Below are positions 1 through 37,247 of a stretch of 37,381 nt of DNA, in pieces. How positions within the stretch are numbered: the stretch's first letter is position 1; every line of letters begins with the position of its first letter. Origin of the DNA: a virus. The DNA is taken from positions 1-37,381 of the IMG/VR virus record IMGVR_UViG_3300024273_000056; one strand, given 5' to 3'. A program made the translations under genes and the position numbers. A model generated the notes under the pieces. It had not been told where the DNA came from. It saw nothing but the letters and a program-made list of their open reading frames with translations, and searched no databases.

Positions 1-11
1 TAAGCTTATGC

Positions 12-38
12 GGAGGGGGTACAAGGGGGTGCATGGGG
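12..38 (+). repeat. Three G-tracts in 10-nt phase
   Basis: G-runs lie at 12-13, 15-19, 25-29 and 35-38. The three long runs recur every 10 nt, close to one helical turn. GGAGG (12-16) can also pair weakly with CCTCC just downstream (41-45). No function is known to me. A G-quadruplex or a packaging or terminal signal are both possible. Confidence 0.4.
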
Positions 39-122
39 TCCTCCCTATATGTACAATACACCATAATATTTTCTATGTATTTTCCTAGGCATGCCAAAAA
101 GGAGTACCCCTCAGTAGAATAC

Positions 123-159
123 AAAAAGGCTCCCCAAGGTATTTAAACCAAGGAGAGCC
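123..159 (-). terminator. Leftward rho-independent terminator
   Basis: Read on the minus strand, an 8-bp stem forms between GGCTCTCC (159-152) and GGGGAGCC (135-128) with one T-G wobble. Two further GG/CC pairs lie inside, closing an AT-rich loop. TTTTT follows at once (127-123). The plus strand has no T-run after the hairpin, so the terminator acts on leftward transcripts only. It lies about 170-200 nt downstream of the leftward promoter at 336-364. Confidence 0.75.
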
Positions 160-196
160 CCAACTGTAGAATCTTGAACAGACCTGTATGTATAGT

Positions 197-242
197 TTAC
201 TTGATGGGTAATATAACTGTGGTGGTAATATACTTCAAGTAA
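197..242. repeat. 8-bp inverted repeat with internal direct repeats
   Basis: TTACTTGA (197-204) is the exact reverse complement of TCAAGTAA (235-242). Inside the 30-nt loop the 9-mer GGTAATATA occurs twice (207-215 and 224-232). It could be an RNA stem-loop in the leftward leader or a protein-binding site between promoter and terminator. Confidence 0.5.
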
Positions 243-335
243 TAGCTAAGCCTGTTTATGCTTACTACAAGAGTGTAGCTACCTTAGTATACATATAGTA
301 TATACCTATATCACCCCTGACGGGATGATAATGCA

Positions 336-364
336 ATTATACCTATTCTTTGTCACCCTGTCAA
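336..364 (-). promoter_or_regulatory. Perfect-consensus sigma-70 promoter, leftward
   Basis: On the minus strand TTGACA (364-359) is followed by a 17-nt spacer and TATAAT (341-336). Both hexamers and the spacing match the bacterial sigma-70 consensus exactly. It fires left, away from the terminase gene, with an expected start near 329. It fits an early promoter read by unmodified host polymerase, as expected for a phage with no RNA polymerase gene in view. Confidence 0.85.
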
Positions 365-421
365 TACAAATCGTACATTTCCTAACATATATTAAATATA
401 GTTTAAAACATCATTTAGTTG

Positions 422-450
422 TTGACACCTAGATAACTCCATGTTAAACT
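422..450 (+). promoter_or_regulatory. Sigma-70-like promoter for the late block, rightward
   Basis: TTGACA (422-427), a 17-nt spacer and TAAACT (445-450) form a promoter with a perfect -35 and a 4-of-6 -10. A TG at 442-443 adds an extended -10 element. The predicted start, near 457, leaves about 60 nt of leader before the terminase small subunit. It stands back to back with the stronger leftward promoter. Confidence 0.6.
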
Positions 451-516: not shown

Positions 517-1044
517 ATGATGTTCACACCTAGTCAACTCAAGGGTAGCAACGGCAAACCCAGAACTAAGAGTCTGTTCTATGAGCTAAGTTATGATGAC
601 CCGTCACTGTCGTTGTTCACGTTTAAGAGTGATGACATAGAGGCCCATGGTCAGCACTTCCTGTCCCTCCAGAAGTTATACCTAGCTCTAGCCCCTAATG
701 ATCCAACTGAATATGAGTTTGCTCAGGCAGTCTTTGGTTCATGGGACATCTGGCAGACCCTATCTCAGGCCCCTGTCATTAAGGTCCATGTGAGACGTTG
801 GCGTAATGAGGTAGAGGTTAAGATTAAGTCCGAGGCTATCCGAGCTATAGCTACCGAGATGAAAGAGGGTGGTCGTAGTTCCTTCAGTGCAGCTAAGCTC
901 CTGTTGGACAAAGGTTGGCTAGACAAGGAGTCAGCCACCATAGCTAAGACTAAGTTAAAAGCTAAAGAAACAGATGATCAGAACAAAGAAGCCTTAGCCC
1001 TTTTGTCAGAGGATGCTGAGAGGCTAGGTATCAAACTAAACTAA
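517..1044 (+). CDS. Terminase small subunit (probable)
   Basis: A 175-aa soluble protein at the head of the late block. The C-terminal third (about residues 115-160) contains a segment resembling T7-type small terminases, with FSAAKLLLDKGW followed by a charged helix. The N-terminal half shows no motif I recognise. Small terminases bind the DNA packaging site and recruit the large subunit. Here the large subunit gene lies almost 4 kb away, beyond the tail-appendage genes. Two ATG codons stand in tandem at 517 and 520, and the nearest purine-rich site (GAGGAAG, 498-504) is 12 nt or more upstream. The assignment rests on local similarity and position; a regulatory DNA-binding protein is the main alternative. 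Confidence 0.6.
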   Translation: MMFTPSQLKGSNGKPRTKSLFYELSYDDPSLSLFTFKSDDIEAHGQHFLSLQKLYLALAPNDPTEYEFAQAVFGSWDIWQTLSQAPVIKVHVRRWRNEVEVKIKSEAIRAIATEMKEGGRSSFSAAKLLLDKGWLDKESATIAKTKLKAKETDDQNKEALALLSEDAERLGIKLN

Positions 1045-10356: not shown

Positions 10357-10385
10357 TTGACAGATGTTTCAAACCCCTGTATAAT
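10357..10385 (+). promoter_or_regulatory. Perfect-consensus sigma-70 promoter, rightward
   Basis: TTGACA (10357-10362), a 17-nt spacer and TATAAT (10380-10385) match the consensus completely. The predicted start near 10392 gives a leader of about 43 nt before the ATG at 10435. It restarts transcription for the tail and internal-virion genes right after the capsid terminator. Confidence 0.85.
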
Positions 10386-31787: not shown

Positions 31788-32825
31788 TTAGTGCGTGTCC
31801 TTCCAGTTGCGCCCGATGTCGGTTGACCCAGCTAATGGGCAGACCATATCGAACTTAACGCCTACGTCAACAAAAGATTGTCGTTGTATCTCACCTAATT
31901 TCTCAGCTGTTGCAAGAGTACCACACACCTCAGTCTGCCACTCATCATGAGGCCATGTGACTAGCTTGAAGTCGATACCCATCTGCTTAGCTTGACGTAC
32001 CCACTGTAGTGCTGAGTGCTTCATGATGACTGACTCACCATTCTGTAGCATACCAGCCAAGGTCTTATGCTCGGAGGGTACGATAACCTTACGTCCATCT
32101 AAGCCCTTGAACCAACCTCGTTTAGCTATGTGGGGTATGACTTTCTTCTTGAGGGTAGCTAAGCCTTCGATAGATTGAGTGAAGTTCTCGACAGCTTGGC
32201 CTGCCTCACGTTGGTTGACACCTAGTATCTGGGAAATCTTAGCTGTACCAGCCCCAAGTAGGAAGGCATAGATGAATGTCTTAGCATCATCACGTGTGAC
32301 GTGAGAGATACCTAGTGCTTTCTTGTTGAGGTTATGGATGTCAGTCTCATCCTCTTTCTTTCCTGACACAATAGCATGTACGTACTCCTCCGACTGCATG
32401 ATATGGGCCAGCACACGTAGCTGGATACCTTCTGCGTCAGTACCTACTAGGTAGTTGCCATCCTCTACCTTCCATAGCTCCCTGAACTGACCGTCATACC
32501 GTGCCTTAACTTCTTCTACTGGGGTACTGGGTGTACCGTGAAAGGCTGAGGGTATGTTAGCTTGGTTAGGTGCTGAGTGAGCCATACGTCCTGTCCATGC
32601 ACCGATGTGACTGAACCTACCGTGGATACGTTTGTCCTCACCACAGTGCCCTAGCCACTCAACCAGTGACGACCGACGACCTTCAAGTGTCAACCACTCA
32701 GCTAACCTCTTGCCGCCCTCAGGGGCTGTGTCAGGGAGTGTGTTAAGGTTTGTCTCAGATAGGGTCCATCCGTACCTTGCGAACTTATCTCCACGATCTT
32801 TGTTGATGTCTTTGTTCACGGTCAT
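31788..32825 (-). CDS. DNA polymerase, polymerase-domain protein (T7 gp5 family A, split)
   Basis: A 345-aa protein carrying the palm, fingers and thumb-end parts. Motif A is LVGTDAEGIQLRVLAH (D130, Q135), motif B is RDDAKTFIYAFLLGAG (R178, K182, Y186, L190) and motif C is PHDEWQTEV (H293, D294, E295). In T7, the residues at Q135 and L190 are Glu480 and Tyr530. Residue 186 (Tyr762 in E. coli numbering) matches T7 Y526. The exonuclease domain is a separate protein upstream, overlapping by 41 nt in the +1 frame. AAAGGA lies 10 nt before the ATG, so it can be translated independently. The two proteins probably act together. Confidence 0.88.
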   Translation of the reverse strand: MTVNKDINKDRGDKFARYGWTLSETNLNTLPDTAPEGGKRLAEWLTLEGRRSSLVEWLGHCGEDKRIHGRFSHIGAWTGRMAHSAPNQANIPSAFHGTPSTPVEEVKARYDGQFRELWKVEDGNYLVGTDAEGIQLRVLAHIMQSEEYVHAIVSGKKEDETDIHNLNKKALGISHVTRDDAKTFIYAFLLGAGTAKISQILGVNQREAGQAVENFTQSIEGLATLKKKVIPHIAKRGWFKGLDGRKVIVPSEHKTLAGMLQNGESVIMKHSALQWVRQAKQMGIDFKLVTWPHDEWQTEVCGTLATAEKLGEIQRQSFVDVGVKFDMVCPLAGSTDIGRNWKDTH

Positions 32826-33690
32826 ATCCTATGTGTCCTTTTGTTTTCTCTACTGGTGTCCACCCTGCTTCCCATAGTCTGTCGATACGCATCTTAGGGG
32901 AGGATGGTTTGAACTCTATCCAATCGTAGCACACTAGGTCAGGTGGATTGTATGACCAATCAACTCTTGTCTGAGGGTACTTCTCTTGTGCCTTGGTTAC
33001 GTTACTCATTAGCTCACCGTCTTTCTTACGACGGTACTTGATACGGTTAACCTCCTGCAGCTGAGGTGGGAAGTCAACTTGAAAGCCATCCTCTAAGTCG
33101 AACATACGTAGCTCAACCTCATCAAGTAATGTCTCAGCCTTAGCATCATCGAAGGAGAAGCCATGTGCTGTCATCTCTTCACATAGTATCTGTATGTCAT
33201 GCTCACAACGGATAGCATCTTGCCACTCAGGGTCAGCTATAACTTTCTTGAACCTCTTGTATAGTTGTACAGTTACCTCAACATCCTGATGACAGTAGTC
33301 GATCATCTCCTGTGTTAGTACCTCGAACTGATCGAAGCCAATCTTGAACTCACCGAGGCGTTGACCCCATGCCTTGAGGCTGTGACCCTTACCGTCTAGG
33401 GTGTAATCAATAAGGCGACTGAGAATAAGAGTGTCACTAACCATAGTAGGACATATGCAACCCTTTCTGACCAGTCTGTTGATAACAGGTACATCAAACC
33501 CAATCCCATTGTGGAACACAAGAGTATCAACTGTGCTGATGAATGTAACAAAACGTTCCTCCTCTTCCTCTACGTGTGATACATTAAGGAACTCATATGT
33601 TTCCCCTGTGTCAACATCCTGTGCGCAGATGACATGGATACGGGTAGCATCTAGTGCATCTGTCTCAATGTCCATTGCTACTGTCTTCAT
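32785..33690 (-). CDS. DNA polymerase, 3'-5' exonuclease-domain protein (split)
   Basis: A 301-aa protein. The DnaQ-like exonuclease motifs are complete: Exo I MDIET (D7/E9), Exo II VFHNGIGFD (N61, D66) and Exo III YCHQDVEV. A thumb-like region follows (QEVNRIKYRRKKDGELMSNV, then FKPSSPKMRIDRLWEAGWTP), matching the T7 sequence just before the polymerase domain. The reading frame then ends (RSWR) while the polymerase ORF begins in the +1 frame. The start at 33690 has GGAAG and overlaps the previous stop. Together the parts are a bit shorter than T7 gp5 (704 aa). It gives proofreading. Confidence 0.88.
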   Translation of the reverse strand: MKTVAMDIETDALDATRIHVICAQDVDTGETYEFLNVSHVEEEEERFVTFISTVDTLVFHNGIGFDVPVINRLVRKGCICPTMVSDTLILSRLIDYTLDGKGHSLKAWGQRLGEFKIGFDQFEVLTQEMIDYCHQDVEVTVQLYKRFKKVIADPEWQDAIRCEHDIQILCEEMTAHGFSFDDAKAETLLDEVELRMFDLEDGFQVDFPPQLQEVNRIKYRRKKDGELMSNVTKAQEKYPQTRVDWSYNPPDLVCYDWIEFKPSSPKMRIDRLWEAGWTPVEKTKGHIGYDREQRHQQRSWR

Positions 33691-34127
33691 GTTATATCTT
33701 CCAACCAAAGCTCAGGCTTTACCTGATCCAAGTAACCATCATTAGGGTAACTAATGTCCATGTTGAAGCAGAACTCATTGTGGAAATCAACTTCTTCTTC
33801 TTCTGGGTCATCAAGTACTTCTATGTAAAGGCGTTTGGCTTCTTCTAATTCTTTCTCAGCAGCCTCAACGTAAGCTTGAATATAGTAAGGGACGTGTACA
33901 TCAGGTCTTGTGTAACTATCCTCCACTTTGTCAGATAAAATTGAAGCTGTCTCTTCATCTGTTATTGTTAGAAGCTGGGTGTATACCTCCTGTTCAATCT
34001 CATGAACAGGTGCCATCAGAACCTCACAGATAGCTTCATAAACATCCTCGGATAGTTTTCTTCTATCGGCCAGAGTCTCCTTAGCAGTATAGTAACCAAT
34101 TTTACGTTGCTGTTTTAGATCATTCAT
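33687..34127 (-). CDS. Acidic hypothetical protein, 146 aa
   Basis: A helical acidic protein (DRRKLSEDVYEAICEVLM, ITDEETASILSDKVED, then EAAEKELEEAKRLYIEVLDD) with an acidic run EEEE. It is coupled to the genes at both sides by ATGA overlaps, between a membrane ORF and the exonuclease-domain gene. It may be a replication accessory factor; there is no recognisable domain. Confidence 0.6.
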   Translation of the reverse strand: MNDLKQQRKIGYYTAKETLADRRKLSEDVYEAICEVLMAPVHEIEQEVYTQLLTITDEETASILSDKVEDSYTRPDVHVPYYIQAYVEAAEKELEEAKRLYIEVLDDPEEEEVDFHNEFCFNMDISYPNDGYLDQVKPELWLEDIT

Positions 34128-37032: not shown

Positions 37033-37247
37033 TATGTCAATTCCTCTACTGTTATGGTGCAGAACGCATAGGTTGTTCTACGTTTAAGAATGTTACGTTG
37101 TCTAGTCGCACCCTTTAAGGTTGGATAAACAGAGTACGCCGTTGTGAATGGTCTGAAACTGCTGCGCAGGTATCTAGGTGCCTCGGATCGTTGCCAAGTG
37201 TGGGTGCAGTCTAGATCAAGGTTACGGGTTCTAATTACATATGCCAT
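37032..37247 (-). CDS. Small basic hypothetical protein, 71 aa
   Basis: An Arg/Thr/Tyr-rich protein with two Cys (LDCTHTWQ, YAFCTITVEEL) and basic repeats of Arg pairs (SEAPRYLRSSFRPF, ATRQRNILKRRTTY). GAGGAAGAG upstream of ATG serves as ribosome-binding site. It shares its stop with the next ATG. No domain recognised; binding to nucleic acid is possible by charge. Confidence 0.55.
   Translation of the reverse strand: MAYVIRTRNLDLDCTHTWQRSEAPRYLRSSFRPFTTAYSVYPTLKGATRQRNILKRRTTYAFCTITVEELT

Follow-up and report, generated by a model that had tools for sequence, protein, structure and literature searches.

The window analyzed is the whole of IMG/VR record IMGVR_UViG_3300024273_000056, a stretch of 37,381 bases from a marine phage. 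Among annotated phages it is closest to ICBM2 and CRP-5, both Veravirus cobaviruses (Zobellviridae, Cobavirinae). The late genes start at 517 and point right, and the early genes start at 37247 and point left. Between the left end of the window and the first late gene lie the edge of a terminal repeat, a conserved block, an intrinsic terminator and two divergent promoters, of which the leftward one faces the terminator (Table 1). The direct terminal repeat annotated in ICBM2 is 159 bp long and its inner end reads TATGTACAAT; because alignment to ICBM2 places TATGTACAAT at 48-57 of the window, positions 1-57 were assigned to the repeat's inner end, which lies at the late genome end. The other end of the contig falls within the early arm, and the window therefore lacks both the outer repeat and the early leader. 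By alignment to the annotated ICBM2 genome, the promoter-terminator unit and the early arm occupy opposite genome ends; the unit adjoins the direct terminal repeat, upstream of the first late gene, and is aimed off the late end of the linear DNA.

For cobaviruses, terminal repeats have been reported along with a bidirectional terminator that separates the two arms; phage SIO1 is described as having no RNA polymerase of its own, and the word "promoter" is absent from the main text of the same paper (PMC6775973). The ICBM2 record carries no annotation of a terminator or promoter-terminator unit at this place. A literature search turned up neither a transcriptome for any cobavirus or other member of the Zobellviridae nor a published account of cobavirus transcription control. 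The window proteins scanned against PHROGs and Pfam, many of which have no assigned function, include none recognizable as a phage RNA polymerase, sigma factor or antiterminator. Two ORFs that overlap by ~40 nt (31788-33708, minus strand) make up the DNA polymerase, one for the exonuclease and one for the polymerase part, likewise in ICBM2 and CRP-5, and a frameshift fusion or two separate proteins are both possible.

Table 1. Features between the left end of the window and the end of the first late gene
Feature	Position	Strand	Basis or remark
Inner end of direct terminal repeat	1..57		Alignment to the annotated 159-bp ICBM2 repeat; remainder missing from contig
Conserved block at terminal-repeat boundary	48..102		Minus strand TTTTTGCAT..GAAAA..AGAAAAT..GCATTGTACATA; ICBM2 repeat ends at same TATGTACAAT
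Intrinsic terminator	119..160	-	8-bp stem 159-152/135-128, inner helix, TTTTT 127-123; -21.1 kcal/mol; stem covariation
Predicted non-coding RNA, ~209 nt	121..329	-	Start near A329 inferred from -10 position; end in U tract
Conserved motif directly upstream of terminator	168..188	-	Family consensus ~CTAAGGACACGTYCAGATTCT; near-repeats in L017 and L082
Predicted 5′-end hairpin UAUCAUCCC-GUCA-GGGGUGAUA	309..330	-	Fold; different stems in many, not all, relatives
Leftward sigma70-type promoter, TTGACA-N17-TATAAT	336..364	-	Motif match, 12/12; conserved in relatives
AT-rich stretch between two divergent -35 boxes	365..421		GC 0.29 for 351-450
Rightward late promoter, TTGACA-N17-TAAACT, TG before -10	422..450	+	Conserved in relatives, mostly TATACT
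First late gene, phrog_8035 family	517..1044	+	Directly before large terminase in other Zobellviridae

Promoter, terminator and predicted RNA

The leftward promoter, TTGACAGGGTGACAAAGAATAGGTATAAT, matches the consensus at all 12 positions, as the sequence-only reading had stated. Exact TTGACA-N17-TATAAT sequences occur twice in the window, compared with 0.01 expected from dinucleotide shuffles of the whole window, and the hexamers, a spacer within 16-18 nt, the excess over chance and the conservation described below are those of a sigma70-type promoter. The second exact copy lies at 10357-10385 on the plus strand, with counterparts in ICBM2 (L118, 28619, minus strand) and CRP-5 (L119, 28106, minus strand). 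In all three phages it directly follows the major capsid gene and points in the late-gene direction, and it is probably an internal late promoter. The AT-rich DNA between the two -35 boxes may serve as an UP element for both divergent promoters. From its place in the gene order, the phrog_8035 gene probably encodes the small terminase subunit. In L020, L022 and L023 (group L020-L023), a small secreted-protein-like ORF is inserted between the late promoter and this gene, and in L114 and L116 an HNH-like or other coding sequence adjoins the unit.

The terminator stem, GGCTCTCC/GGGGAGCC, includes one G-U pair, and the 8-bp hairpin followed by TTTTT that had been read on the minus strand at 159-123 is borne out by its fold energy. 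A simple terminator scan did not report it because the loop is 16 bases with an inner 3-bp helix, whereas the scan permits loops of up to 8 bases.

The RNA predicted from the promoter and terminator positions (329 to ~121) is close in length to the ~205 nt given earlier; predicted lengths in relatives range from 110 to 261 nt, with ~258 nt in ICBM2 and ~208 nt in CRP-5. The internal 8-bp inverted repeat (TTACTTGA/TCAAGTAA, within 197-242) and the two short repeats (GGTAATATA, at 207-215 and 224-232) are both present in the window, as claimed, and neither recurs in the RNAs of relatives. A 9-codon ORF was also claimed and could not be pinned down; the longest ORF found in the RNA has 13 codons. 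No ORF within the RNA is conserved across relatives (67 spanning loci), so the RNA looks non-coding, and a coding leader peptide was rejected on the same ground.

A structured non-coding RNA was rejected for the body of the transcript, which on average folds no better than shuffled sequences (z of about -0.9). Searches of Rfam, which includes phi29 packaging RNA and 6S RNA, gave no match at the gathering threshold and none that was meaningful at a relaxed threshold, and a known RNA family was rejected accordingly; an isrG match in L002, located in the tail-gene region and under that family's gathering score, was set aside as chance. Translation starts of the phage itself were searched as targets in three phages; none was common to all three in what is a weak test, and the phage's own mRNAs were dropped as candidate targets on this basis.

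Conservation and distribution of the unit

Relatives were gathered via the first late gene, and the stretch between this gene and the repeat was compared. This gave 67 distinct spanning loci. As they are related, they do not count independently: the 64 RNAs compared form 31 groups at 88% identity. The leftward promoter with its 17-nt spacer matches at 11 or more of 12 positions in 63 of the 67 loci (12 of 12 in 54), a terminator of -12 kcal/mol or stronger is found in 64, and both occur together in 62, all in Veravirus-type cobaviruses. Seven Zobellviridae genomes contain 19 promoters matching at 11 or more positions, only four of which are followed by a terminator within 330 nt; because all four pairs share one map position, that of the unit, the combination of promoter and terminator is not a chance one.

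A comparison of related cobaviruses for covariation had been proposed as a check in the sequence-only reading, and it revealed covariation in the terminator stem: 41 double-change cells compared with 15.6 in shuffles, with none of 500 shuffles as high. Double changes occur in 7 of the 8 stem pairs, slid controls scored far lower, 87.5% of cells are paired, and the U tract is always on the same strand. A GC-rich stem, a U tract and preservation of the stem by compensatory change are thus all found, as for an intrinsic terminator.

Directly before the terminator, a CTAAGGACACGTYCAGATTCT-like motif is found in most lineages and is weak in some (L019, L075, L020). In most relatives the 3′ half of the motif shows less pairing than the remaining RNA body (mean 74th percentile of unpairedness). 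A -10-like TATAGT is often found at about +20 of the RNA in relatives.

Between the terminator and the repeat, the conserved block is retained in relatives, and it may be a terminase recognition site. The terminator lies 44-50 nt from the GTACATA boundary sequence in many loci and less than ~110 nt from it in nearly all; in the window, the predicted RNA 3′ end (~121) is ~63 nt short of the direct terminal repeat.

The unit is absent from Siovirus (SIO1, ICBM1, ICBM3, P12053L and 11 IMG/VR loci), where only the rightward late promoter was found, and a consensus scan found no such unit in RIO-1, ICP2 or PA11. The distant Vibrio phage VpV262, which has an annotated repeat, has the same layout as the window: a promoter (TTGACA-N18-CATAAT, 45546-45575), a terminator (45709-45739) and then the repeat at 45874. 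Its relatives L145 and L147 have no comparable promoter upstream of the gene and no DNA similarity there to the VpV262 unit, giving no support for its conservation among VpV262 relatives.

On the early side of the repeat, ICBM2, SIO1 and L017 share a long, conserved non-coding stretch that lies ahead of the first early gene, and a recurring TTGCTCTTAGGGTYACMCCSATAATAGAGCAAAGCC segment within it resembles an early leader (L031, 470-720; L037, 8190-8450, minus strand; L017). The possibility that the pre-terminator motif is a site flanking both sides of the repeat was rejected, as such an arrangement is real in one clade only (L009-L029), in which GACACGTT overlaps the -35 region of a promoter-like sequence beyond the repeat; an apparent copy past the repeat in L062 is an artefact of a second TATGTAC. 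In L009, L015, L026, L027 and L028, GACACGTTCA, which also occurs in the motif of the predicted small RNA, overlaps the -35 of a promoter-like site on the early side, ~200-250 nt beyond the repeat boundary; this shared sequence is possibly a common protein site.

Possible roles of the unit

The unit comprises a promoter, a covarying terminator and a pre-terminator motif at a fixed map position, with no conserved ORF. Of the roles proposed in the sequence-only reading, a stand-alone small RNA fits best: promoter and terminator are conserved together, the stem covaries and no conserved gene lies inside. With moderate confidence, we interpret the unit as a self-contained non-coding transcription unit at the late genome end, from which the host would make a discrete RNA that perhaps works in trans by way of the motif. 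Transcription by host RNA polymerase carrying the main sigma factor would start near 329, proceed leftward and end with release of the polymerase at the terminator near 121, before the direct terminal repeat is reached. The product would be a discrete RNA, variable in length among relatives, that is made and accumulates, and that may act in trans through the conserved motif as terminator-ended bacterial small RNAs do. A promoter and a terminator of its own and the lack of a conserved ORF are the features of such RNAs, and the anatomy of the transcript (promoter, predicted 5′ hairpin, accessible conserved motif, terminator) fits action in trans via the motif. Against this, length and fold are not conserved, which would be uncommon in a structured regulator; apart from general synteny, action in trans would not account for the constant position next to the repeat; the motif is weak in the three lineages named above and the 5′ hairpin is missing in some relatives.

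Short terminator-ended phage RNAs such as lambda OOP RNA run from their own promoter to an intrinsic terminator and encode no protein. The predicted RNA is like them in each of these respects, but OOP is antisense to a neighboring gene, whereas no gene lies opposite the unit. The phi29 packaging RNA is a small RNA encoded near the genome end, as this one would be, but the unit differs in having no Rfam match, in the lack of a conserved fold and length, and in the type of packaging and genome.

An attenuated early leader that decides when early genes open, as had also been suggested, is unsupported: the unit lies at the late end and is aimed off it, and the early genes are at the opposite end. 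For virion DNA, an early leader was rejected by topology, as the terminal repeat ends the linear molecule and the early arm begins at the other end. Read-through from the unit could enter the early arm only on concatemers or circles. The lambda late leader (pR′ to tR′, 6S RNA) combines a strong promoter, a ~200-nt RNA and an intrinsic terminator near the genome end and is controlled by Q; the unit shares the promoter strength, RNA length, terminator and position, but it has no known antiterminator, and the genes across the junction are those of the early arm, which is not contiguous with it in linear DNA, where no regulated operon lies directly downstream in the same direction. By analogy, an antitermination factor would allow read-through across the terminal repeat into the early arm on concatemers or circles, which we consider improbable. 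The TATAGT at about +20 could make polymerase pause in a sigma-dependent manner, as in the pausing that serves Q loading (PMC7171158). Past the repeat and ahead of the first early gene, a TTGACA-type promoter is recognizable in only 19 of 50 loci, and because of this read-through on concatemers is kept in consideration. On the other side, the transcript is aimed off the end in linear virion DNA, no antiterminator family was recognized among the early-arm proteins scanned (many of them unassigned), and in several relatives the first early gene is closely preceded by a promoter of its own. A role as origin or primer, in which AT-rich DNA would be opened by the short transcript and this transcript would serve the T7-like replication enzymes of the phage as a primer close to the genome end, is very improbable. 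T7 uses promoter-linked origins, the window encodes a T7-like polymerase and a primase/helicase, no phage RNA polymerase was recognized, and the region is AT-rich; but priming near and towards the end would copy little of a linear genome, and an RNA that ends in a terminator and forms a strong hairpin primes poorly.

The main rival explanation holds that the act of transcription, not the RNA, matters: host polymerase released just before the repeat would aid concatemer processing or packaging, and the terminator would keep polymerase off the terminase site. We regard it as unlikely, although it accounts for several features. The unit is always aimed at the terminal repeat, the terminator keeps its distance from GTACATA in many loci while RNA length varies more than twofold, a conserved block follows the terminator at the repeat boundary, the neighboring gene is probably that of the small terminase, and the layout recurs in VpV262, which is only distantly related and whose repeat has been mapped. 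T7 RNA polymerase pauses at the concatemer junction, and the paused complex interacts with gp18 and gp19 (PMC3276506). Like T7 phiOR and this pause site, the promoter of the unit is near the late end and directed at the terminal repeat; unlike phiOR, it is of host type and not of phage-polymerase type, an intrinsic terminator stops the RNA before the repeat, and no phage single-subunit RNA polymerase with its promoter was found among the proteins scanned. Siovirus packages with similar repeats yet without the unit, the spacing between terminator and repeat is not constant in all loci, and the conserved motif inside the RNA region is left unexplained unless it is a DNA site. The broader idea that phages without their own RNA polymerase couple host transcription, or a short RNA, to concatemer maturation and packaging, as a host-polymerase counterpart of the T7 phiOR/junction system, is unlikely.

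From the arrangement and conservation of its parts, the unit probably makes a small non-coding RNA rather than serving as an early-gene switch. Cobaviruses occur in seas around the world, no RNA polymerase is known from them, and this conserved unit beside the repeat offers a concrete, easily tested handle on the control of their transcription. It implies either an abundant small RNA or the use of host transcription at the packaging junction.
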